DNA of 64,000 nucleotides from Vicinamibacterales bacterium (lineage in GTDB: Bacteria > Acidobacteriota > Vicinamibacteria > Vicinamibacterales > UBA2999). The stretch is taken from NCBI GenBank assembly GCA_030680175.1, contig JAUXWO010000076.1, forward strand, positions 1 through 64,000. Reading direction: 5' to 3'. Positions 1,248-41,915 of this stretch are shown here, one piece after another. Each line of letters begins with the position of its first letter. The stretch's first letter is position 1. The translations under genes and the position numbers were made by a program. The notes beneath the pieces were generated by a model that was not told the origin of the DNA, did no database searches, and saw only the letters and a program-made list of their open reading frames with translations.

Positions 1248-3677
1248 ATGCAGAGACTCGTCGTGACCCTGGCGGGGGCCCTCGTGCTGGGCCTGGCGTG
1301 GACGGCCGCCATCCCGGAGGCCCGCCAGAGGCCGGTCGCCTCGCATGCGCCGGGCCCGCTGCCCGCCGGGGGGCAGACGGCCCTCGTCAAGCAGTACTGC
1401 GCGACCTGCCACGGCGACCGCGCGAAGGCCGGCGGCCTCACGCTTGCGTCCTTCGACGCCGCCCACGACGGCACCCCCCTCGAGATCCGCGAGAAGATGA
1501 TCCGCAAGCTGCGGACCGGCATGATGCCGCCGGCCGGCGCCACGCGGCCGGATGCGGCGACGCTGCTGCGGCTGGCCGCGTCGCTCGAGGCCGACATCGA
1601 CCGGGCCGCCGCCGCCCACCCGGATCCCGGCTGGCGTCCCTTCCAGCGGCTGAACCGCGCGGAGTACGCGCGCGCGGTCCGCGACCTGCTGGATCTCGAC
1701 GTGGACGTCGCGCCGTACCTGCCCGCCGACACCATCAGCGAGGGGTTCGACAACGTCGCCGATGCGCAGGCGCTCTCGGCGACGCTCACCGAGGGCTACC
1801 TGCGCGCCGCCAGCCAGATCAGCCGCCTCGCGGTGGGCGACCGCGACGCGACGCCGGGCTCGGCCACCTACATGGTGGCGCGGACCACCTCCCAGATGCG
1901 GCACGTCGAGGGCACGCCGATCGGCACGCGCGGCGGCCTGTCGGTCGTGCACGTGTTCCCGGCCGACGGCGAGTACACGTTCCGGATGATGCTCTTCGGC
2001 AGCCCCACGGGTGAGCTGTTCGCGGGGACCACCATCGGCAGCCGGTCGCCGTGGTGGGAGGGCGTCACGGGCGAGCAGATCGAGGTGTCGATCAACGGCG
2101 AGCGCGTGGCGCTGGTCGACATCAACCCGCAGATGACCGAGTCGGACCCGAACGGGCTCAACCTCCAGACGGGGCGCATCCACGTCGCGGCCGGCCCGCA
2201 GCGCGTGTCGGCCGCCTTCGTCCAGCGCTTCGACGGCCCCATCGACGATCTGATGGCGCCCATCGAGCACTCACTGGCCGACAGCCGCATCGGCACGGGG
2301 CTCGGCATCAGCGTGCTGCCGCACCTGCGCGATTTCGCCGTCAACGGCCCGTTCGTCGTCACCGGCGTGTCCGAGACGCCGAGCCGCCGGCGGATCTTCT
2401 CGTGCCGTCCGACCGGCAGCGGCGACGAGGCCGCCTGCGCGGCGGCGATCATCCGCCGGCTGGCGGGACAGGCCTACCGCGGCCCCGTGAGCGCCGAGGA
2501 CTTCGAAGGGCTGATGCGGTTCTACGAACTCGGCCGCGCGAAGGGCGGGTTCGAGCCCGGCGTGCGCATGGCGATCGAGGCGCTGCTCGCCAGCCCGCGG
2601 TTCATCTTCCGGATGGAGCGGGCGCCGGCCGCGCTCCGGGCGGGGCAGACCTATCCCGTGTCCGGGCACGACCTCGCCTCGCGCCTGTCGTTCTTCCTGT
2701 GGGGGACGGCTCCAGACGCCGCCCTGATCGAGGCGGCCTCGCGCGGGCGCCTCGACACGACGGCCGGGCTCGACGCCGAGGTGCGGCGCCTGCTCGCCGA
2801 CCCGCGATCCGAGGCGCTGGCGACGCGCTTTGCCGGGCAGTGGCTGCGCCTGCAGGATGTGGACAAGGTGCGTCCCGACTCCCTCGCGTATCCCCACTGG
2901 GATCTGTCGCTGGCGGAGGCGCTGCGGCGCGAGACCGAGCTCTTCTTCGACAGCCTGGTGCGCGAGGACCGGAGCCTGCTCGATCTGCTCACGGCCGACT
3001 GGAGCTACGTGAACGAGCGCGTGGCGCGCCACTACGGCATCCCGAACATCAACGGCAGCCACTTCCGCCGCGTGGCGATGCCCCCGGAGCGGCGGGGGAT
3101 TCTGGGCCACGGCAGCATGCTGCTCCAGACCTCCACCGCCGACCGCACGTCGCCGGTCAACCGCGGACGATGGGTGATGGAGGTGCTGCTGGGATCGCCG
3201 CCGCCCGCGCCGCCGCCGAATGTGCCGGAACTCGAAGAGGCCAAGGTCGGGCACGGCGGCCGGCTGCTCACCGTGCGTGAGCGCATGGAGGAGCACCGTG
3301 CGAACCCGGCGTGCACGTCGTGCCATCGCGTGATCGATCCGCTCGGGCTCGCGCTCGAGAACTACGACGTCACCGGCAAGTGGCGGATCAAGGACCACGG
3401 CGTGCCGGTGGAGACGGCGGGGCAGCTGTACGACGGCACGCCCATCGACGGCCCGGCCGGACTGCGCGCCGCGCTCCTGACGCATCAGGATGCGATCGTG
3501 TTGAGCTTCACCGAGAGCCTGATGACCTACGCGCTGGGCCGCCGCGTCGAGGCCCCCGACATGCCGACGGTCCGCCGCATCGTCCGCAGCGCGGCGGCCG
3601 AGGACTACCGTCTCTCGTCGTTCGTGCGTGCCATCGTCGCCAGCCCGGCCTTCCGCATGAGCCGGCAGACGAATTGA
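1248..3677 (+). CDS. DUF1592-family c-type cytochrome (copy 1)
   Basis: 809-residue secreted protein. The frame is open further upstream, but ATG 1248 is followed by a clear signal peptide (MQRLVVTLAGALVLGLAW), so I start there. Domains in order: a cytochrome-c-like segment with CATCH haem motif (about residue 50), DUF1587 (FQRLNRAEYARAVRDLL), a carbohydrate-binding-like middle, DUF1595 (AIIRRLAGQAYRGPV), DUF1592 (LASRLSFFLWG), DUF1588 with a second haem-type motif CTSCH, and DUF1585 (FTESLMTYALGRRVE). This is the standard planctomycete/acidobacterial domain set; the substrate is unknown. It is followed 142 bp later by its DUF1552 partner, and the pair is repeated downstream. Confidence 0.9.
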   Translation: MQRLVVTLAGALVLGLAWTAAIPEARQRPVASHAPGPLPAGGQTALVKQYCATCHGDRAKAGGLTLASFDAAHDGTPLEIREKMIRKLRTGMMPPAGATRPDAATLLRLAASLEADIDRAAAAHPDPGWRPFQRLNRAEYARAVRDLLDLDVDVAPYLPADTISEGFDNVADAQALSATLTEGYLRAASQISRLAVGDRDATPGSATYMVARTTSQMRHVEGTPIGTRGGLSVVHVFPADGEYTFRMMLFGSPTGELFAGTTIGSRSPWWEGVTGEQIEVSINGERVALVDINPQMTESDPNGLNLQTGRIHVAAGPQRVSAAFVQRFDGPIDDLMAPIEHSLADSRIGTGLGISVLPHLRDFAVNGPFVVTGVSETPSRRRIFSCRPTGSGDEAACAAAIIRRLAGQAYRGPVSAEDFEGLMRFYELGRAKGGFEPGVRMAIEALLASPRFIFRMERAPAALRAGQTYPVSGHDLASRLSFFLWGTAPDAALIEAASRGRLDTTAGLDAEVRRLLADPRSEALATRFAGQWLRLQDVDKVRPDSLAYPHWDLSLAEALRRETELFFDSLVREDRSLLDLLTADWSYVNERVARHYGIPNINGSHFRRVAMPPERRGILGHGSMLLQTSTADRTSPVNRGRWVMEVLLGSPPPAPPPNVPELEEAKVGHGGRLLTVRERMEEHRANPACTSCHRVIDPLGLALENYDVTGKWRIKDHGVPVETAGQLYDGTPIDGPAGLRAALLTHQDAIVLSFTESLMTYALGRRVEAPDMPTVRRIVRSAAAEDYRLSSFVRAIVASPAFRMSRQTN

Positions 3678-3808
3678 ATTGCAGATTGCAGATTGCAGAT
3701 TGCAGATTGGTCCAGAGCAAGATCGATAGATCGAACGATTTGCACAAGAGCCGAAATCCGAGAGCCGAAAGCCGATAGCCGAGAGCCGATAGCCGATAGC
3801 CGATAGCC
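3678..3808 (+). repeat. Two 7-bp-period arrays in the intergenic gap
   Basis: Directly after the stop codon of the cytochrome gene lie about four and a half ATTGCAG units (3678-3709). At 3750-3808 follow eight GCCGANN units (gccgaaa, tccgaga, gccgaaa, gccgata, gccgaga, then three gccgata) in strict 7-bp register. The second array ends 11 bp before the next start codon. Same family as the array at 13166-13350. Confidence 0.85.
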
Positions 3809-3819
3809 TGGAGACCACC

Positions 3820-5223
3820 GTGAGCTACCTGACTAAGCGACACCTGTCGAGGCGAACCGTCCTGAAGGGCATGGGCGTGGGCGTGTCGTTGCCCTTGCTC
3901 GATGCCATGCTGCCGGCGCGCACGGCGTGGGCGGGGACGCGGGCCACGGGGCGTACGCGACTGGCCGCGATCGAGATGGTGCACGGATCGGCCGGCGCCA
4001 CGACCTACGGCGCGTCGAAGCACATGTGGTCGCCCGCGGCGGCGGGGCGCGCGTTCGACCTCGGGCCGACGAGCCTGAAGCCGCTCGAGCCGTTCCGGGA
4101 GGCGCTGACCATCATCAGCAACACCGATGTGCGGAACGCCGAGGCGTTCGACCTGCCCGAGATCGGCGGCGATCACTTCCGATCGAGCGCCGTGTTCCTG
4201 ACGCAGGCGCACCCGCGGCAGACGCAGGGGTCGGATGTGCGCGTCGGGACCTCGCTCGACCAGCTCTACGCGCAGCGGGTGGGCCGCGAGACGGCGATCC
4301 CCTCGATGCAGCTCTGCATCGAGAACGTGGATCAGGCGGGCGGCTGCTCCTACGGCTACTCGTGCGTCTACACCGACACGATCAGCTGGGCCACGCCGAG
4401 CCAGCCGCTGCCGATGGTGCGCGATCCGCGCTTCGCCTTCGACCAGCTCTTCGGCATCGGCGCCACGCCCGAGGACCGCGCCGAGCGGCGCGCCAATACG
4501 AGCAGCATCCTCGACTGGATCACGGGCGAGGTCGCGCGGCTGCGCCAGGATCTCGGGCCGGCCGACCGCGTCCGGCTCGGCGAGTACCTCGAGAACATCC
4601 GCGAGATCGAACGCCGCATCCAGGCCATCGAGGCGCGGAACGCGAGCGGCGAGAGCCGCGAGATGCCCGAGGCGCCGATCGGCGTGCCGGACTCCTTCAC
4701 GGACCACGTGACGCTGATGTTCGACCTGCAGGTCGTGGCGTTCGCCTCCGACATCACGCGGGTCTTCTCGTTCAAGATGGGCCGCGATGCCTCGGGCCGC
4801 GTCTACCCGGAGAGCGGCGTCTCGACCGGCTTCCACCCCGCCTCCCACCACCAGGAGCGCGAGGACCGGATCACGGAGTTCCAGAAGATCAACACGTACC
4901 ACGTCGGGCTCATCCCGTATTTCCTCGAGAAGCTGAAGGCGACCCCCGACGGCGACGGCACGCTGCTCGACAACACGCTCGTGCTCTACGGCTCCCCGAT
5001 GGGGAACCCCAACGTCCACAACCACAAGCGCTGCCCGCTGTTCCTGGCCGGGCACGCGGGCGGGGCGCTCACGGGCGGCCACCACCTCGTCACGCCGGAT
5101 GGCACCCCGATGGCCAATGCCATGCTCAGCGTCCTCCACGTGCTGGGCCTCGAGGACGTGCAGGCGTTCGGGGACAGCACCGCGCCCCTCAACCTGAACG
5201 GGCCAGGCGCAGACAGCCGATAG
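3820..5223 (+). CDS. DUF1552 Tat-exported protein (copy 1)
   Basis: 467 residues, GTG start preceded by ggag. The N-terminus carries a twin-arginine signal (SRRTVLKGMG) followed by a hydrophobic stretch and an AWA cleavage-like site, so a folded protein is exported. The body matches DUF1552: GDHFRSSAVFLT, a conserved Cys segment (ENVDQAGGCSYGYSC), DLQVVAFASDITRVFSF and the C-terminal VHNHKRCPLFLAGHAGG. The fold relates to the sulfatase/DUF1501-type group, but no reaction is established. It probably works with the cytochrome encoded upstream. The TAG stop lies inside a GCCGATA-type repeat unit. Confidence 0.9.
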   Translation: MSYLTKRHLSRRTVLKGMGVGVSLPLLDAMLPARTAWAGTRATGRTRLAAIEMVHGSAGATTYGASKHMWSPAAAGRAFDLGPTSLKPLEPFREALTIISNTDVRNAEAFDLPEIGGDHFRSSAVFLTQAHPRQTQGSDVRVGTSLDQLYAQRVGRETAIPSMQLCIENVDQAGGCSYGYSCVYTDTISWATPSQPLPMVRDPRFAFDQLFGIGATPEDRAERRANTSSILDWITGEVARLRQDLGPADRVRLGEYLENIREIERRIQAIEARNASGESREMPEAPIGVPDSFTDHVTLMFDLQVVAFASDITRVFSFKMGRDASGRVYPESGVSTGFHPASHHQEREDRITEFQKINTYHVGLIPYFLEKLKATPDGDGTLLDNTLVLYGSPMGNPNVHNHKRCPLFLAGHAGGALTGGHHLVTPDGTPMANAMLSVLHVLGLEDVQAFGDSTAPLNLNGPGADSR

Positions 5224-11943: not shown

Positions 11944-13098
11944 ATGAACCGCCGAGCTGCACTCAAAAGTGGGACCACCGCGGCGCTGGGCCTCGTCCTC
12001 GGGGGCTGCGCGACGCGGCCCGCGGCCACAGTGGCGCCCGTGCGGGCGGCCCGTCCGATGGTGCGCCTGCCGCGCGTCCACGCCTCGCTCGAACGCGTGA
12101 TTCGCACGACGGTCGGCCTCCGGCCGTATCGTCCGTCGGGCTTCGTGCTCAGGGCCGAGCGCCTCGACGACACGACCCTGGTGCACAACTACGGGCACGG
12201 GGGCGCCGGCTGGTCGCTCTCGTGGGGCACGGGCCTGATGGCCACGGAGCTGGCGCTCGAGACGGGCCACCGCCGCGCCGTCGTGATTGGCGCCGGCGTC
12301 GTCGGCCTCACCACGGCGCTGCAGCTCCAGCGGCGCGGCGTCGACGTCACCATCTACGCCGCGAGCCTCCCGCCGGAGACGACCTCGAACATGGCGCTGG
12401 CCGGCTTCACGCCGACCTCGGGGCTCGTGAACTTCGCGACCCGGTCCCCGGCGTGGGAGGCGCAGTTCCGCCGCGCGGTGACCATCGCCTACCGTCACTG
12501 GCAGCTGCTGGTGGGGCCGCACTGGGGCGTCTCGTGGGTCCCGAACTACGCGCCGACCGACACTGCCGGGTCGGCCGCCGGGGCCAACCCGCTGCTCCCG
12601 GACGAGGTGCGGGCCGCGCGCGAGCTGCTCGGACCCGGCGAGCATCCCTTTCCGATGACGTACGCGGTGCGCCGCGACGAGATGCGCTTCGAGCCGTCGA
12701 TCTTCCTCGACGCCGCCCTGCGCGATTTCCTCGTCCTCGGCGGCCGCGTGGTGGTCCGGCGCTTCGCGTCGCTGCGCGAGGTGGCGGCGCTCGGCGCGCC
12801 CGTGGTGGTCAACTGCGCGGGGCTCGGCGCGCGGGATCTCGTCGGCGACCAGGAGCTCACGCCCCTGCGCGGGCAACTCGTGGTGCTCGTGCCGCAGCCG
12901 GAGGTCCAGTACGCCACCAATGGCGGCGTCCGGACCGACCGCAACACCCCGGGCGGCTTCCTCCACATGATGCCGCGCAGCGACGGGATCATCCTCGGCG
13001 GGACCTCCGAAGAAGGCGAGTGGTCGCTCGAACCAGACCCGGCGGAAATCCGCCGCGTGGTCGAGCGCCACGTCGAGCTGTTCGACTCCATGCGCTGA
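11944..13098 (+). CDS. D-amino-acid-oxidase-like flavoprotein, permuted
   Basis: 384 residues from ATG 11944 (agg 5 bp upstream); ATG 11935 is the alternative. N-terminus: twin arginines (NRRAALKSG) and lipobox LGGC at Cys22, so a Tat-exported lipoprotein. Residues 58-96 hold GLRPYRPSGF and HNYGHGGAGW, motifs that form the C-terminal end of ordinary D-amino-acid oxidases. The FAD-binding VVIGAGVVGL follows at about 113. The protein ends after GIILGGTSEEGEWS and VVERHVELF, the segment that normally precedes GLRPYRP. The order is therefore that of a circular permutation. Oxidase activity on a D-amino or D-aspartyl-type substrate is inferred from the family. Confidence 0.75.
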   Translation: MNRRAALKSGTTAALGLVLGGCATRPAATVAPVRAARPMVRLPRVHASLERVIRTTVGLRPYRPSGFVLRAERLDDTTLVHNYGHGGAGWSLSWGTGLMATELALETGHRRAVVIGAGVVGLTTALQLQRRGVDVTIYAASLPPETTSNMALAGFTPTSGLVNFATRSPAWEAQFRRAVTIAYRHWQLLVGPHWGVSWVPNYAPTDTAGSAAGANPLLPDEVRAARELLGPGEHPFPMTYAVRRDEMRFEPSIFLDAALRDFLVLGGRVVVRRFASLREVAALGAPVVVNCAGLGARDLVGDQELTPLRGQLVVLVPQPEVQYATNGGVRTDRNTPGGFLHMMPRSDGIILGGTSEEGEWSLEPDPAEIRRVVERHVELFDSMR

Positions 13099-13105
13099 TC
13101 GATTC

Positions 13106-13140
13106 ATTGCAGATCGTAGATTGCAGATTGCAGATTGGGC
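13106..13140 (+). repeat. ATTGCAG heptamer array
   Basis: Five 7-bp units (attgcag, atcgtag, attgcag, attgcag, attgggc) starting 8 bp after the oxidase stop. Same family as 3678-3709. Confidence 0.8.
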
Positions 13141-13165
13141 CGGAGCAAGATCAACGGATTGGCTA

Positions 13166-13350
13166 GCCGATAGCCGATAGCCGATAGCCGATAGCCGATC
13201 GCCGAGAGCCGAGAGCCGAGAGCCGAAAGCTGATAGCTGATTGCTGACAGCCGATAGCCGATAGCCGATAGCCGATCGCCGACAGCCGATCGCCGAGAGC
13301 CGATCGCCGAGAGCGGAAAGCCGATTGCTGACAGCCGATAGCCGATAGCG
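13166..13350 (+). repeat. 26-unit GCYGANN heptamer array
   Basis: Twenty-six consecutive 7-bp units plus 3 bases, with no insertion or deletion. The first five positions are almost always GCCGA (GCTGA in five units, GCGGA once); positions 6-7 vary (ta, tc, ga, aa, ca, tt). It fills most of the gap between the oxidase and the next gene and ends 20 bp before that gene's ATG. Shorter arrays of the same family lie at 3750-3808, 17164-17226 and about 24619-24646. Confidence 0.9.
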
Positions 13351-13369
13351 TGTGGACCAGGAGAGACCG

Positions 13370-14233
13370 ATGACGTTCAGGACGTGGGTGGTGGCGGTGG
13401 TGGCGGTGGCGGCGTGTGTGGTGGCGGCGCCTGCCCAGGCGCAGGGACGACTGCCGATTCTCGACGTGTGGGAATCGGGGAAGACGGCATTCGGTGTCTT
13501 CGTGCCGAATGAGAACCCCGCGCCGCCGCGTGGACAGGGCGGGCCGCCGGCGCCCGGCACCCCGCGCCCGGCGCCGCTGTACACGCGCGAGGGTGGCGAG
13601 CGGCTCGCGATGAACCCGCTCTATGACTATGTCTTCCTCAACCTCGAAGGCAGCTACGACCCCGACGCCATCACGGCGATCGCCGAAGGCCTGCGGAGTC
13701 CGAAGGCCGTGGGTCGCAAGATGCTGCTCGTTCGCATCCCGACCGTCGAGGCGGCAGGCGCCGAGGTGACACGGGCGCGGATCAAGGAAGTGTTTGCGCG
13801 CGGCGCCGACGGCGTCACGGTGCCGCACGTGCGCAGCGTCGAGGAGGCGCAGCTCGTTGCCGGGTTCTTCAAGGAGACCGGCGTGAACATCTGGACGCCG
13901 AAGAACCGCGGCGGGGACAAGCTGGCGATGATCATGATCGAGGATCCGGACGCCCTGGCGCAGGCAGCGCAGATCGCGGACACGCCCGGCATCAGCATCC
14001 TCGCGTGCGGGATCGGCAGCCTGACCGGTGCGCTCAAGGGCGACCGCGTGGCCGCGGAAGCCGGCAACCAGGCCATCCTGGCCGAGAGCAAGCGCGTCGG
14101 CCTGCCCAACATGCTCACCGCCTCCCCGGCCGACGTCGAGAAGCGCGTCGCCGAAGGCTTCCTTGCGCTGCTCGGACAGGGGCCGCCGGCCGAGGAGATG
14201 ATCAGGCTTGGGCGGAAGGCGGCAGGCAGATAG
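13370..14233 (+). CDS. Secreted HpcH/HpaI aldolase-family protein
   Basis: 287 residues from ATG 13370, preceded by ggagag. A signal peptide (VVAVVAVAACVVAAPAQA) is followed by a Pro/Gly-rich linker (residues 45-65). The remainder follows the HpcH/HpaI aldolase/citrate-lyase pattern: FLNLEGSYDP, a conserved R in LVRIPTVEA, GADGVTVPHVRSVEEA and the metal-ligand region MIMIEDPDAL. The family cleaves or forms C-C bonds of oxo-acids with a divalent metal, normally in the cytoplasm, so a signal peptide is unusual. No neighbouring pathway gene indicates the substrate. Confidence 0.75.
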   Translation: MTFRTWVVAVVAVAACVVAAPAQAQGRLPILDVWESGKTAFGVFVPNENPAPPRGQGGPPAPGTPRPAPLYTREGGERLAMNPLYDYVFLNLEGSYDPDAITAIAEGLRSPKAVGRKMLLVRIPTVEAAGAEVTRARIKEVFARGADGVTVPHVRSVEEAQLVAGFFKETGVNIWTPKNRGGDKLAMIMIEDPDALAQAAQIADTPGISILACGIGSLTGALKGDRVAAEAGNQAILAESKRVGLPNMLTASPADVEKRVAEGFLALLGQGPPAEEMIRLGRKAAGR

Positions 14234-14433
14234 ATAGATCACGACATCTGCTGACGTGGTGATGTCGTGATGTGGTGATCTCGGATGTGCGATGTCAGAT
14301 GTCAGATCTATCTCGTGATCTCATGTGCGCATCGCGGCCGCGCGGCGGTCGCGAGATCAGAAGCTGGATTGACCGATCTTCACATCGACGCATTCGATCA
14401 CCACATCACCACATCACGACATCGTCAGATGTA
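14234..14433 (+). repeat. 8-bp-period repeat-rich gap
   Basis: Right after the TAG stop come TAGATAGATCACGAC and octamer runs such as GTGATGTC GTGATGTG GTGATCTC (about 14258-14282) and ACCACATC ACCACATC ACGACATC (about 14399-14423). The two runs are reverse complements in character, so a long hairpin could form across the gap between the two convergent genes. No gene seen. Confidence 0.65.
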
Positions 14434-17096: not shown

Positions 17097-17163
17097 ACCC
17101 GGGATCCATTCTAGCCGCCTTCGCCCCGACCTCAAAGAAGGCGGCAGAAGCCGGGAGCTGGTC

Positions 17164-17226
17164 GCTGATCGCCGAAAGCCGACAGCCGATCGCTGACAGC
17201 CGATCGCTGACAGGCGAGCGCTGACA
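17164..17226 (+). repeat. Nine-unit GCYGANN heptamer array
   Basis: Nine 7-bp units in register (gctgatc, gccgaaa, gccgaca, gccgatc, gctgaca, gccgatc, gctgaca, ggcgagc, gctgaca), between the tRNA and the radical SAM gene. Confidence 0.85.
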
Positions 17227-17302: not shown

Positions 17303-18448
17303 ATGTCTGCCTCCCCGGCCCCCCTTGTCCCGCAGCCGGCGCCCGGCGGCCCGCGCCGGTTCCCCTCCGACTTCGCCGCCGCCCCCTTCATTGTCATCTG
17401 GGAGGCGACGCGTGCGTGTGCGCTGGCGTGTGTGCACTGCCGCGCCGATGCCATCCCGCGACGCGACCCGAACGAGCTGACGACGGTCGAGGCGTGCGGG
17501 CTGATCGACCAGGTGAAGGCATTCGGCGAGCCCTCGCCGCTCTTCGTGCTCACCGGCGGCGACCCGATGTGGCGCAAGGACCTCGTGGAGATCGTCGGCT
17601 ACGCCACCGCGCAGGGGGTGAGCGTCGCGCTGACGCCGAGCGGCACCGGGGCGCCGACGAAGGCGCGCCTCGCGGAGCTGCAGCAGGCGGGGCTGAGCCG
17701 GGTGGCCGTCAGCCTCGACGGGCCGGACGCCGCCACGCACGATCTGTTTCGCGGCGTGCGCGGTTCGTACATGTACACGATGAAGATCATCGACGCGGTG
17801 GCCGAGCTCGGGCTGCCGCTGCAGATCAACACGACCGTGAGCCGCACGACGCTCCCGCGCCTGCGCGCGATGGCGGCGCGGGTGGCGGAGTTCCCGCTGA
17901 CGCTCTGGGCCGTGTTCTTCCTCATCCAGACCGGCCGCGGCCGCGACCTCGACCAGATCTCGTCGGCGGAGTGCGAGGATGTCCTGGTGTGGCTGGACGA
18001 GCTGTCGTCGCGCGTGCCCTTCGGGATCAAGACGACGGAGGCGCCGCACTATCGCCGGGTCATCTGGCAGGCCGAGCAGGCCCGCGCGGCCGCCGGCACG
18101 CCACAGGCGGCCGGCGTGTTCCGCCGACCCCAGCTGCGCGCCACGCGCGCGGTGAACGACGGCAACGGGTTCGTCTTCATCGACCATGTCGGCGCGATCT
18201 ACCCGAGCGGCTTCCTGCCGATGCCCTGCGGCAGCGTCCGGACGGCGCAGCTCGCCGACGTGTATCGCGACCACCCGGTCTTCACGCACCTCCGGAACGC
18301 CGACGGGTTCGGCGGCCGCTGTGGCCGCTGCGAGTTCCGCGAGCTGTGCGGCGGCTCCCGCTCCCGCGCCTACGCCGCCACCGGCAACGCCCTCGGCGAA
18401 GATCCGCTGTGCAGTTACGAACCGAAGACGAATCTGGTGATCTCGTGA
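17303..18448 (+). CDS. Radical SAM/SPASM protein (TIGR04053-like)
   Basis: 381 residues. The [4Fe-4S] motif CALACVHC (Cys39, 43, 46) follows PFIVIWEATRA, and the SAM-binding GGDPMW lies near residue 95. The C-terminal SPASM region carries CGSV..., CGRCEFRELCGG and a final DPLCSYEP cysteine, for auxiliary clusters. The sequence resembles the TIGR04053 group related to haem-d1/AhbD-type enzymes, but the substrate is not known. The gene is alone between the tRNA and a repeat-rich gap; its TGA stop lies within an octamer array. Confidence 0.85.
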   Translation: MSASPAPLVPQPAPGGPRRFPSDFAAAPFIVIWEATRACALACVHCRADAIPRRDPNELTTVEACGLIDQVKAFGEPSPLFVLTGGDPMWRKDLVEIVGYATAQGVSVALTPSGTGAPTKARLAELQQAGLSRVAVSLDGPDAATHDLFRGVRGSYMYTMKIIDAVAELGLPLQINTTVSRTTLPRLRAMAARVAEFPLTLWAVFFLIQTGRGRDLDQISSAECEDVLVWLDELSSRVPFGIKTTEAPHYRRVIWQAEQARAAAGTPQAAGVFRRPQLRATRAVNDGNGFVFIDHVGAIYPSGFLPMPCGSVRTAQLADVYRDHPVFTHLRNADGFGGRCGRCEFRELCGGSRSRAYAATGNALGEDPLCSYEPKTNLVIS

Positions 18449-18753
18449 TGTGGTGATCTGGTGATGGATGTGGCGATCCTCAGATCTCCCGGTGGTGTCA
18501 CTGTGATCTAGCTGTTGATCTCGCCATCTACCTGTTGACCTTCCAGTGGCGCCGCTGTTGATCTCGCGGATCGATCTGTCGCCCTACCGAGTGGGCCGTC
18601 GCAGCCAACGATGGTGGGTTCCGCCGACACATCGACACATCGACACATCGACAGATCGATAGATCAGAAGTCAGATCGTCACATCCCACATCAGTACATC
18701 AGATCTCCAGCTCACCACATCACGAGATCACCAGATTCTGCTAATGTTCCCCC
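18449..18753 (+). repeat. Octamer-repeat gap before the epimerase gene
   Basis: Non-coding. GTGATCTC/GTGATGTG-type octamers run from the preceding stop codon to about 18475. CGACACAT octamers lie at about 18630-18660, followed by short GATAGATC and CACATCA pieces to 18735. No gene is seen. The last 12 bases before the epimerase hold its likely -10 box. Confidence 0.7.
18742..18747 (+). promoter_or_regulatory. Extended -10 box of a leaderless gene
   Basis: TGcTAATGT ends exactly 6 nt before ATG 18754, so transcription should begin at or next to the start codon. No Shine-Dalgarno is present. No convincing -35 box is seen, which fits an extended -10 promoter. Confidence 0.5.
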
Positions 18754-24609: not shown

Positions 24610-24648
24610 TGTGGTGAGCCAAGCTGATCGCCGAAAGCTGATCGCCGC

Positions 24649-31538: not shown

Positions 31539-31720
31539 ACGGACCAGGGATCGGGATCAGGGATCGGGGATCGGGGGAAGGGGTCCCCGTCGGGTTTCAT
31601 TTCAATCCAGGGTTGCCGTAAGAAGGCAAAGTCTTCGTGTCGCCTTCGTGGCCTTCGTGACCTTCGTGTTTGTCCCTGATCCCTGATCCCCGATCCCCGA
31701 TCCCCCTCGACGTCCCCGCC
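31539..31720 (+). repeat. Three short-period arrays in one gap
   Basis: Starting 4 bp after the MFS stop: GGATCNN heptamers (about 31547-31578), CCTTCGTGN nonamers (about 31633-31671) and NNGATCC heptamers (about 31675-31710). The first and third arrays are reverse complements of each other, so the 3' region can fold into a long hairpin. No gene seen. Confidence 0.7.
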
Positions 31721-33251: not shown

Positions 33252-34063
33252 TGTTCGATCGCGTACTCGTGCCCATTGACGGCGCGCCGAGGTCGCGCGA
33301 TGCGATTGCGGTCGGGCGGCGGCTGGCCCGGCTGCACGGCGCGCGGCTCTGGCTGGTGACCGTCGCGACGCCGGACGTCGACGACGCGGCGGCGGAGCTC
33401 GTCGTGCAGGACGGCCTCCGGGCGGCGGCCGACCCGGGCGCCGTGACGACCATCGTGCGGGGCGCGGACGCGGCGGAAGAGATCGTGCGGATCGACCGCG
33501 CACATCCCGGCGCGCTCGTCTGCATGGCGACGCGCGCGCGTGGCGCCATTGGGCGGACGCTGTTCGGGAGCGTGGCCCATGGGATCATCGGCCGTTCAAA
33601 CCTCGGTCAGGTCCTGGTCGGGCCGGCCTGTGATCTGGCCGACCGCCCCATCGATCGCATCATCGTGTGCCTCGATGGATCCCCCGAAGGCGAGGACGCC
33701 CTGGCGCACGGGGTCCGGTGGAGCGAGTCCACGGGCACGCCCCTCATACTCGTGCGCGTGGTCTATCCGCTGGTCGATCCGGTGGCCCGCATCCCGCCAA
33801 CCGATGCGCAGATGAGCGAACTCGGCTATGCGCGGCGGCTCTCGGCGCAACTCGAAGCCGGCGGCCACCCGGTCTCAGACGTAACGGTCCAGCATGTCTT
33901 CCCGCCCGAGGCGCTGGTCGACATCGCGGAGCGATGGCCGACGGGCCTGCTCGTCGTCGCCTCGTCCAATGCCGGGCCGGCGGCGGAGTTCGTCCTCGGG
34001 AGCACCGCCAACCGCGTGGTCCGGGCGAGTTCCGTCCCGGTGCTCGTCGTGCCCCGCGGCTAG
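33251..34063 (+). CDS. Universal stress protein, two UspA domains
   Basis: 270 residues, start overlapping the antiporter stop (TGATG). Two tandem UspA domains: residues 1-125 (FDRVLVPIDGAPRSRDAIAV; CMATRARGAIGRTLFGSVAH) and about 135-270 (DRIIVCLDGSPEGEDALAHG; LGSTANRVVRASSVPVLVVP). The G-x2-G-x9-GS-type ATP-binding signature is recognisable in both. Co-translation with a cation/proton antiporter suggests regulation of ion homeostasis under stress. Confidence 0.85.
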   Translation: MFDRVLVPIDGAPRSRDAIAVGRRLARLHGARLWLVTVATPDVDDAAAELVVQDGLRAAADPGAVTTIVRGADAAEEIVRIDRAHPGALVCMATRARGAIGRTLFGSVAHGIIGRSNLGQVLVGPACDLADRPIDRIIVCLDGSPEGEDALAHGVRWSESTGTPLILVRVVYPLVDPVARIPPTDAQMSELGYARRLSAQLEAGGHPVSDVTVQHVFPPEALVDIAERWPTGLLVVASSNAGPAAEFVLGSTANRVVRASSVPVLVVPRG

Positions 34064-34064
34064 A

Positions 34065-34250
34065 TTCGCTGTTCGCTATTCGCGATTCGCCATTCGCCAT
34101 TCGCTATTCGCCATTCGCTGTTCGCCGTTCGCCGTTCGCTGTTCGCTGTTCGCGATCCGCTGTGCGCCGTCCACCGTTCACTGTCCACTGTCCGCCCACT
34201 ACCCACTACCCACTACCCACCACCCACTACCCACCCCCCATTACCCTCTG
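34065..34250 (+). repeat. Two abutting heptamer arrays (TTCGCNN, CCCACTA)
   Basis: Nineteen TTCGCNN-type units run without indels from 34065 to 34197; the first 13 keep the core, the last drift to tccaccg/ttcactg. A second array of CCCACTA-type units (cccacta x3, cccacca, cccacta, cccaccc, cccatta) covers 34195-34243. The first begins 1 bp after the usp stop; the second contains the stop codon of the convergent aminotransferase gene. Confidence 0.9.
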
Positions 34251-35381
34251 CAACCCCTCAAAGAGTCGGTCGACGTCGTCGCTGGTGTTGTAGACGTGCG
34301 GCGTGACGCGGAGGGTCTGGCCACCGCGCACGCTGACGTAGATCTGATCGGCCGCGAGCCGCTCCGACAGGCGGTCGGGGAGCGGGCGGGCGGCGCGGAG
34401 CCCCACGTAGTGGCGCGCGCGGCGCGACGGTGGGGCGGCGGAGAAGCCGAGCGCCTCCCCGCGGCGGACGATCTCGTCCGCGAGCGCACCGGCCGTGTCG
34501 GCGATGTTCGCCACGCCCCACGCCAGGATCTGATCGATGGCCGCCACGGCCGCCGGCAGCAGCGCGAAGTTCGACGGCTCGCCCATGTCGAACCGGCGCG
34601 CGCCGGGCTGGAACCGCTCGGGGTAGTCGATCAGCCCGCCGAAGTTCTCCGACCCCTCGCGCGCGTACCAGCTGTGCTCGAGCGGCCGGCCCTCGTGCCA
34701 GCGCGGCGCCACGTAGAGGAACCCGATCGAGTACGGCCCGAGCAGCCACTTGTAGGCGGCGGCGACGAGGAAGTCCGGGTCGAGCGCGGCGAGATCGATC
34801 GGCTGCGCGCCGAGCGACTGGGTCACGTCGAGCGCGAGGGCGGCCCCCACCTCGCGCAGCCGTCCGCGGATCGCGGCGAGGTCGAGCGTGCCGCCGTCCA
34901 GCCAGTGCAGCGCCGGCAGCGCCGCCACCGCCGTCCGCGCGTCGATCGCCTCCAGCACCACCCGCGTCCAGTCCCCATCGTCCGGCCGCGGCAGCCGCAC
35001 CAGCTCCGCGCCGGCCTCGCGGGCGCGTTCCCGCCAGGTGAGGATCGTGGACGGGAACTCGCCCTCGAGGACGAGCACGCGCTGGCCGCTCGCGAGCGGC
35101 AGGTTCCGCGCCGCGGTGGCCATACCGTAGCTCGCCGACGAGACGATCGCGACATCGTCCTCGGTGGCGGGCGGGCCGAGCAGGGCGGCAAAGGCCCGGC
35201 GTCCCGCGTTCGTCGTGGCGAAGAAATCGGCCGGCGTCACCTCCCACGGCCGCGCCTTCCGCGCGAGGCCGGCCTGGCCGGCGGCCGTTACGTGCCGCAT
35301 GAGCGGCCCCATGTAGGCGCAGTTCAGGTAGCAGATCTCGTCGGGCATGTCGAAGAGCGCGCGCTGTGAAGGCAGGATCAT
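34227..35381 (-). CDS. Class V aminotransferase family PLP enzyme
   Basis: 384 residues. Fold-type I PLP enzyme: CYLNCAYMGPL at the N-terminus, VSSASYGMATAA for cofactor phosphate contacts, ALDVTQSLGAQP with the Asp that binds the pyridine nitrogen, and AAYKWLLGPY with the Schiff-base Lys near residue 225. It resembles the selenocysteine-lyase/isopenicillin-N-epimerase-like subgroup; substrate unknown. The last residues (VMGGG) and the stop codon are encoded by a CCCACTA array. Its ATG is only 15 bp from the divergent fluC gene, with CATAGT 7 nt before it, so it may be leaderless. Confidence 0.8.
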   Translation of the reverse strand: MILPSQRALFDMPDEICYLNCAYMGPLMRHVTAAGQAGLARKARPWEVTPADFFATTNAGRRAFAALLGPPATEDDVAIVSSASYGMATAARNLPLASGQRVLVLEGEFPSTILTWRERAREAGAELVRLPRPDDGDWTRVVLEAIDARTAVAALPALHWLDGGTLDLAAIRGRLREVGAALALDVTQSLGAQPIDLAALDPDFLVAAAYKWLLGPYSIGFLYVAPRWHEGRPLEHSWYAREGSENFGGLIDYPERFQPGARRFDMGEPSNFALLPAAVAAIDQILAWGVANIADTAGALADEIVRRGEALGFSAAPPSRRARHYVGLRAARPLPDRLSERLAADQIYVSVRGGQTLRVTPHVYNTSDDVDRLFEGLQRVMGGG

Positions 35382-41263: not shown

Positions 41264-41713
41264 CTACTTGCGGCGGATGTAGGTCACGTGCGTGACGCCC
41301 GTGATCTTGCCATCCTTGTCCATGCGGATGTACTCGTTGCTGATCTGGTTGTTGTCGGCGGACAGTGTGTTGATGATCACCTGGGTGACGACGCCGTTCC
41401 GCTTGTTGTAGATGCGGGTGCTCTTCTCGTCGATGATCTCGACGGCCGTCTCGGCGTTCTCCTGGCCGGTGACGGGACGGTACTGGCCGTCGAACATCGT
41501 CACGTAGCTCCACGCCGCCTCGGGCTTGCGCGGATCGCTGACGGTGACCTTCATGCCGCCCTTCTCGTAGGGCTCGTAGGTCATGACGTTGTTGGGGTTG
41601 GTCGAGTTGTCCCAGATCCCGAATCGCGTCTCGCCCTGGGCCGAGGCCGGGCTGGCGGCGACGAGGGCGGCGGTGAAGACGGCCGTGCAGACGAGCAGAT
41701 TTCTGTATCGCAT
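41264..41713 (-). CDS. Small secreted protein of unknown function
   Basis: 149 residues from ATG 41713 (agagga upstream). Signal peptide about 1-26 (LLVCTAVFTAALVAASPASA). The mature protein is rich in Asn, Tyr and Thr: FGIWDNSTNPNNVMTYEPYE, GVVTQVIINTLSADNNQI, ending THVTYIRRK. The pattern suggests a lipocalin-like beta-barrel, but I cannot name a family. A MITE-like repeat lies 92 bp upstream. Confidence 0.65.
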   Translation of the reverse strand: MRYRNLLVCTAVFTAALVAASPASAQGETRFGIWDNSTNPNNVMTYEPYEKGGMKVTVSDPRKPEAAWSYVTMFDGQYRPVTGQENAETAVEIIDEKSTRIYNKRNGVVTQVIINTLSADNNQISNEYIRMDKDGKITGVTHVTYIRRK

Positions 41714-41804
41714 CGATTCAATCCTCTTGGAGCTCCGGCAGCCGGAGAATCTGGTCAGCATACTCAATGGCGGGGAGGGCTGCAACGCGCGATCGGCGGC
41801 CCAA

Positions 41805-41915
41805 CTAGTGGAGTGTATCGACTGAAGAGGTAATACCAGCGCCTCTGCTCAGCCGCGATCCTGCGGGCCGCCCAACGGGCGGCCCGGTAGTAAATCGTCA
41901 ACGACACCCTACTAG
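41805..41915 (+). repeat. MITE-like repeat, copy 3
   Basis: 111 bp, same length as copy 2 and nearly identical: CTAGTGGAGTGTATCGACTG at the left, the hairpin GGGCCGCCC aac GGGCGGCCC, GTAGTAAATCGTCAACG, and a right end ACACCCTACTAG with two changes. As with copy 2, the right CTAG provides the TAG stop of the adjacent minus-strand gene. Confidence 0.85.

Follow-up and report, generated by a model that had tools for sequence, protein, structure and literature searches.

Several families of short tandem repeats form a polarised satellite at gene borders in a Vicinamibacterales genome

To our knowledge, bacterial heptamer arrays have long been reported and have no accepted cause. Among described systems, the GGGAATC arrays of Xanthomonas and the GGGGA(T/C)T arrays of Nostoc are intergenic, comprise 2 to 26 units, and keep some positions of the unit conserved while others are free (PMC4692102). 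They lie near the 5' neighbouring ORF whatever its orientation, and their paired sites are always convergent. They are unstable between related species, and their function was left open (PMC4692102). The TAACTGA direct repeats of Beggiatoaceae, cyanobacteria, and Bacteroidetes are intergenic heptamers too and are mostly oriented to start codons (PMC4679880).

The arrays analyzed here have their architecture, gene-proximity polarity, and instability in common with those of Xanthomonas and Nostoc. However, one G-rich, quadruplex-capable family per genome is found there, whereas about ten families with periods of 7, 8, and 9, mostly not G-rich, are found here. Judged from their letters, the units appear largely unsuited to quadruplexes: only TAGTGGG has a three-G run per unit, and GCYGANN, TTCGCNN, and other families have none. 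The TAACTGA repeats differ in having a single core and few units per set, and for the Orange Guaymas genome just one inverted repeat was described (PMC4679880). The STRR heptamers of cyanobacteria and other LSSRs resemble our arrays in their period of 7, intergenic position, and many copies, as cited in two papers (PMC4692102, PMC4679880). The polarised array pattern is known in part from Xanthomonas and cyanobacteria. Heptamer architecture and gene-proximity polarity are already known from Xanthomonas and Nostoc; new here are the many families in a single genome, the polarity across families, and the spread across phyla. No description of many families in a single genome, cross-family polarity, or cross-phylum handedness was found in the literature searched.

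We use L for the unit form that reads 5' to 3' outward from the left-hand gene and R for its reverse complement. In the window (the whole stretch of 64,000 nucleotides that was analyzed), the following arrays were located:

3678 to 3709, plus strand: ATTGCAG array, L form, perfect, adjoining the stop codon at 3677
3748 to 3808, plus strand: GCYGANN array, R form, shortly ahead of a start near 3820
13106 to 13137, plus strand: ATTGCAG array, L form, 4.6 units, 8 nt past the stop codon at 13098
13164 to 13349, plus strand: GCYGANN array, R form (inward to the right-hand gene), 26.6 units, 0% indels, TRF score 225
14246 to 14296, plus strand: ATCTGGTG-type octamers, L form
14397 to 14423, minus strand: ATCTGGTG-type octamer family, R form, reading ATCACCAC on the plus strand
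17148 to 17224, plus strand: GCYGANN array, R form, 11 units
18432 to 18465, plus strand: ATCTGGTG octamers, L form, spanning the stop codon at 18448
18625 to 18665, minus strand: octamers CGACACAT, within 18625 to 18736
18700 to 18736, minus strand: octamers CAGATCAC, R form of the ATCTGGTG family, also within 18625 to 18736
24621 to 24648, plus strand: four GCYGANN units, flanked by two minus-strand genes
31541 to 31576, plus strand: GGATCRG array, L form, short, with an indel (TRF 6%)
31673 to 31705, minus strand: GGATCRG family, R form, reading TCCCYGA on the plus strand
34065 to 34197, plus strand: TTCGCNN array, L form, adjoining the stop codon at 34063
34195 to 34246, plus strand: CCCACTA array, R form, overlapping the end of a minus-strand aminotransferase gene (34227-35381)

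The GCYGANN array at 13164-13349, which a preliminary description had given as 26 units without an indel, was confirmed as such. Its sole core mismatch is GAGCGGA, and it lies between an FAD-dependent oxidoreductase gene ending at 13098 and an HpcH/HpaI-type gene starting near 13352. The CCCACTA array and the octamers at 14246-14296, 18432-18465, and 18625-18665 were also as described. Other entries needed revision. The TTCGCNN array exists, but of its reported 19 units only 13 are clean, and the last six, still in register, drift into CCCACTA. Both ATTGCAG arrays exist, but the one at 13106 has one diverged unit. Of two supposed GGATCNN arrays, the one at 31541 is real and the one at 31673 is the reverse complement rather than a second GGATC array. 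The GCYGANN arrays at 3748-3808, 17148-17224, and 24621-24648 had been missed. Within 34150-34246, the drift runs in register from TTCGCNN over TCCGCTG, TTCACTG, and TCCACTG to CCCACTA, as if one family had changed into another by base substitution with the phase kept.

De novo array tests covered 1.68 of the 4.98 Mb of the window's genome, DNA that is about 84% coding. The check for an enrichment of period 7, set beforehand, was positive: heptamers were the commonest class with 166 arrays, 162 of them intergenic, against 63 arrays of period 9, 46 of period 8, and at most 14 for each remaining period from 2 to 13. Periods 14, 21, and 28 were largely the heptamers again. First-order Markov shuffles gave no arrays at all, in agreement with the earlier suggestion that these are not chance microsatellites. 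Indels were rare as well, with 11 out-of-phase neighbouring same-family pairs among 348 arrays. In the whole genome, (GCYGANN)x4 had 370 forward and 325 reverse matches, compared with 83 and 54 for the reversed control. The array pattern is therefore real and far beyond chance. The LSSR/STRR class is defined by tandem units of 5-11 nt, longer than the chance expectation of the genome, with heptamers commonest. Since our arrays exceed chance, are most often heptamers, and are mostly intergenic, they are members of this known bacterial class of long simple-sequence repeats.

De novo clustering yielded about ten recurring core families:

Heptamers: GCYGANM; GCGAANN (reverse TTCGCNN); CCCACTA; GTGRACG; AWTGCAG (one or two clusters); GGATCRG
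Octamers: ATCTGGTG and GGTGCCGG
Nonamers: GAAGGNCAC and GTGCCCARG

A fixed five-base core with two free positions, proposed earlier for all families, fits TTCGCNN best. GCYGANN has a third variable position (Y/R), and in the remaining families between one and three positions vary, at other places in the unit. We compared neighbouring units, bearing in mind that array detection requires the core, so that low core variation is partly built in. In TTCGCNN, a difference was seen in 51% and 53% of pairs at the two free positions, in 10% at the first core position, and in 1-4% at the other four. In TCRGCNN, the corresponding values were 40% and 57% at the free positions, 45% at the R/Y position, 19% at the first position, and 2-4% at three further core positions. 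In GAAGGNCAC, N differed in 72% and every other position in at most 3%. The core mismatch rate was flat with array length. Selection acting on redundant units can hardly account for this, and the finding agrees with the copying or homogenisation of units that carry the core. Free dinucleotides of neighbouring units were more alike than when shuffled, as expected from unit duplication, and a period scan revealed higher-order repeats among the arrays. No gradient of mismatches or of unit identity was found along arrays, and directional array growth was rejected on this ground. When orthologous spacers were compared between two congeneric genomes belonging to the order, the families differed, or only one of the genomes had an array. 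The unit of some arrays in these spacers starts with the stop codon itself (TAACGCC, TGACGTC, TAACGTT), as though the end of the gene had seeded them.

The outward L forms include TCRGCNN, TTCGCNN, TAGTGGG, ATCTGGTG, and GAAGGNCAC, among others. When arrays were clustered without prior choice, same-family inverted pairs in one spacer had a uniform order in every family: 9/9, 4/4, and 9/9 pairs, 9/9 for the octamer and 16/16 for the nonamer, and one or two pairs in the others. This unanimity needs no assignment of L and R. Over ten families and all spacers, 79 of the 81 adjacent opposed pairs were LR and 2 were RL (binomial p 3e-21). Pairs joining different families were LR in 29 cases and RL in one, a count not fully independent because L and R were assigned from same-family pairs of the same genome. 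By gene context, the LR:RL ratio was 27:0 in convergent, 28:1 (++) and 21:0 (--) in co-directional, and 3:1 in divergent spacers. Spacers with at least three arrays mostly read L..L R..R with a single switch; two start with an R array.

Single arrays followed the side rule by 82 to 26, and in co-directional spacers the R strand was the sense strand in 51 and not in 20. Genes were called by our own codon-usage script, a simple caller that makes gene ends approximate; on this basis, 36/49 L arrays lay at most 20 nt from the stop codon behind them, and R arrays lay closest to the start codon ahead. In the window, all 5/5 multi-array spacers scored in the ten-family scan obeyed the rule. The orientation is thus near-strict: all families face away from the gene that lies nearer, irrespective of its direction. 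The polarity of Xanthomonas and Nostoc, with the strand set near the 5' neighbouring ORF and paired arrays convergent, was found here too. The constant architecture over unrelated cores noticed earlier is therefore real and stronger than claimed, extending to a shared polarity relative to flanking genes. Together, several families of this one genome make up a polarised satellite at the borders of genes.

Could this order arise with no dedicated factor? Neutral polymerase slippage would expand heptamers, and selection at gene ends, acting on start codons, ribosome-binding-like words, and stop codons, would remove the wrong orientation. The higher-order repeats and alike neighbouring dinucleotides show unit duplication, and arrays are quickly replaced between congeneric genomes. 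Moreover, in relatives with reversed GCTGA pairs the free dinucleotides are mostly AT, TT, or TG, so that ATG or TTG arises on the GCTGA strand. However, slippage alone does not yield a shared core with fixed free positions across dozens of arrays. Start- and stop-codon filters were rejected: they fit some families but fail in the convergent spacers, which have no start codon and yet are strictly polar (27:0), and in the two largest families, where no start- or stop-codon asymmetry predicts the handedness. We regard slippage with selection as possible but doubtful. Keto/amino strand skew was rejected as well, array-free spacers being unskewed and the nonamer family being of opposite composition. 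Selection against direct repeats around genes would, by reasoning, not fix one genome-wide handedness.

Many spacers are imperfect inverted repeats, and arms of the same family are enriched per spacer (25/41 versus 11.8 expected). The arms could therefore act in RNA as a hairpin (a terminator, an attenuator, or an mRNA-end stabiliser), or the R strand could serve as a tuned 5' leader. The excess of the R strand as sense among single arrays (51 to 20) agrees with such an RNA-level role, as do the TAACTGA arrays of Beggiatoa, which are placed immediately 5' of start codons and directed at them (PMC4679880). Against pairing, arms were no more complementary within a spacer than to arms of other spacers, with free positions unmatched, and 29/79 LR pairs joined different families. 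Despite the same-family enrichment, hairpin pairing was thus rejected, the arms being unmatched in detail. No terminator (stem-loop plus T run) was found in the stretch scanned around the 13164 array (12900-13500). Folding energies of L and R differed without a consistent sign, and RNA self-folding was rejected as the source of handedness. Overall, an RNA-level element seems improbable to us.

The same-family enrichment would also be expected if the arrays were decayed mobile palindromic elements (REP, MITE, or similar) that spread as L-loop-R with the order inherited, single arrays being half-elements. REPs and BIMEs mobilised by RAYT (Y1_Tnp) are likewise dispersed intergenic inverted pairs. 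REPs, though, are single short palindromes and not heptamer arrays, and here we found heptamer arrays with independent arms. The genome holds three Y1_Tnp genes, too few for RAYT transposases, which were rejected; reverse transcriptase was rejected as well, no such domain being found in the genome. Spacers with GAAGGNCAC nonamers have in common a dispersed palindrome some 110 bp long, so that the nonamer family does resemble REP/BIME in this respect, and octamer spacers share sequence too. In contrast, other shared sequence was present in only 24/93 spacers with heptamer families a-f, arms within a spacer were no more alike than between spacers, and the 29 LR pairs (with one RL) join different families. 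We consider a palindromic-element origin of the arrays to be of low probability. Gene-flanking inverted repeats as the unit were rejected too, for there was no family matching (5 versus 6.2 expected).

The octamer and nonamer families may have an origin different from that of the heptamers, since they often lie within larger dispersed or palindromic elements. The palindromic element that carries GAAGGNCAC nonamers reads ACGTACAAACACGAAGG...CGTCCGCCTC...GCGAGC; example spacers are L043 5424-5672, L051 13561-13974, L112 8475-8849, and L118 8276-8486. Separately, a dispersed repeat of about 110 bp occurs in array-free spacers at 41713-41911 of the window and in L060, L094, L110, L042, and L044. 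Its copies are 95-98% identical and form a GC-rich hairpin with ends like CTAGTGG...CCACTAG, and it looks like a MITE-type element.

The GCYGA pair was then followed in other genomes. Of 120 genomes in the order, 18 had the pair as LR and 9 had it as RL; the free dinucleotides of the reversed pairs were mostly AT, TT, TG, or GG. The window's own genome had 106 LR matches and no RL match, counts that include overlapping matches and hence are not independent events. A cross-group sample comprised 29 genomes of many groups, picked for a ten-unit GCYGANN array. Opposed GCYGA pairs were present in 20/29, and LR order was kept in 14/20, from many phyla and with cyanobacterial genomes among them. Twelve of the 14 genomes with LR pairs had no RL; both orders occurred at LR:RL 24:1 in Bacteroidia and 97:13 in Oscillatoria. 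Six genomes had RL only, namely three Oscillochloris bins (30, 11, and 1 matches) and three genomes with one match each. We also considered loss of the palindrome nuclease SbcCD. In the order, SbcD exceeded the curated cut-off in 0/18 LR genomes versus 16/102 others (p 0.13), and it was present in 18/29 genomes of other groups. This candidate was rejected because, outside the order, many genomes with LR pairs from other phyla do carry SbcD. Only 16/120 genomes of the order have SbcD above the cut-off, and the window's genome is not among them.

Ahead of slippage with selection filters, palindromic elements, and RNA elements, we tentatively favour a directional process that reads the core. Our best guess is a putative directional reader or writer acting in trans, most likely a sequence-specific DNA-binding or DNA-processing protein. 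Arrays would grow and shrink by whole-unit exchange through slippage or unequal recombination. The trans-acting factor would read the core and tolerate the free positions, so that only core-bearing units would be copied or kept. By acting one way along the outward strand, it would let arrays persist mainly with a gene behind them.

Directional reading is suggested by the enrichment in period and intergenic position, the discrete families common to many spacers, and the fixed positions of high and low variation (free 40-57%, most core 1-4%), independent of array length. The single order of same-family inverted pairs, the LR bias across families, the like handedness of GCYGA in many phyla, and the fast replacement of arrays between congeneric genomes point in the same direction. 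The same handedness has been published for GGGAATC-type arrays of Xanthomonas and Nostoc (PMC4692102). Several results count against directional reading. No reader or writer protein was found, and there is no gradient along arrays. Several cores in one genome would need several readers or a core-blind mechanism. In some genomes, GCYGA handedness is the opposite one, for the most part combined with other free dinucleotides; the Oscillochloris bins are reversed too, and the gene ends rest on a simple gene caller. The shared polarity supports the earlier proposal that one mechanism may underlie all families, but no enzyme or binding protein was found.

Polarity that is blind to the direction of transcription and common to unrelated cores argues against explanations that rest solely on the sense transcript, on hairpin pairing, or on G-quadruplexes. 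It is a strong constraint and points to a directional DNA process at gene borders. More broadly, and on present evidence rather unlikely, a core-independent process in many phyla could write or keep tandem satellites of short units at the borders of genes, with a single polarity that leads away from each gene irrespective of how it is transcribed; cores would be replaced fast, while polarity and the 7-9 nt pitch would be kept. The polarity rule itself provides a simple test for any array-bearing genome.
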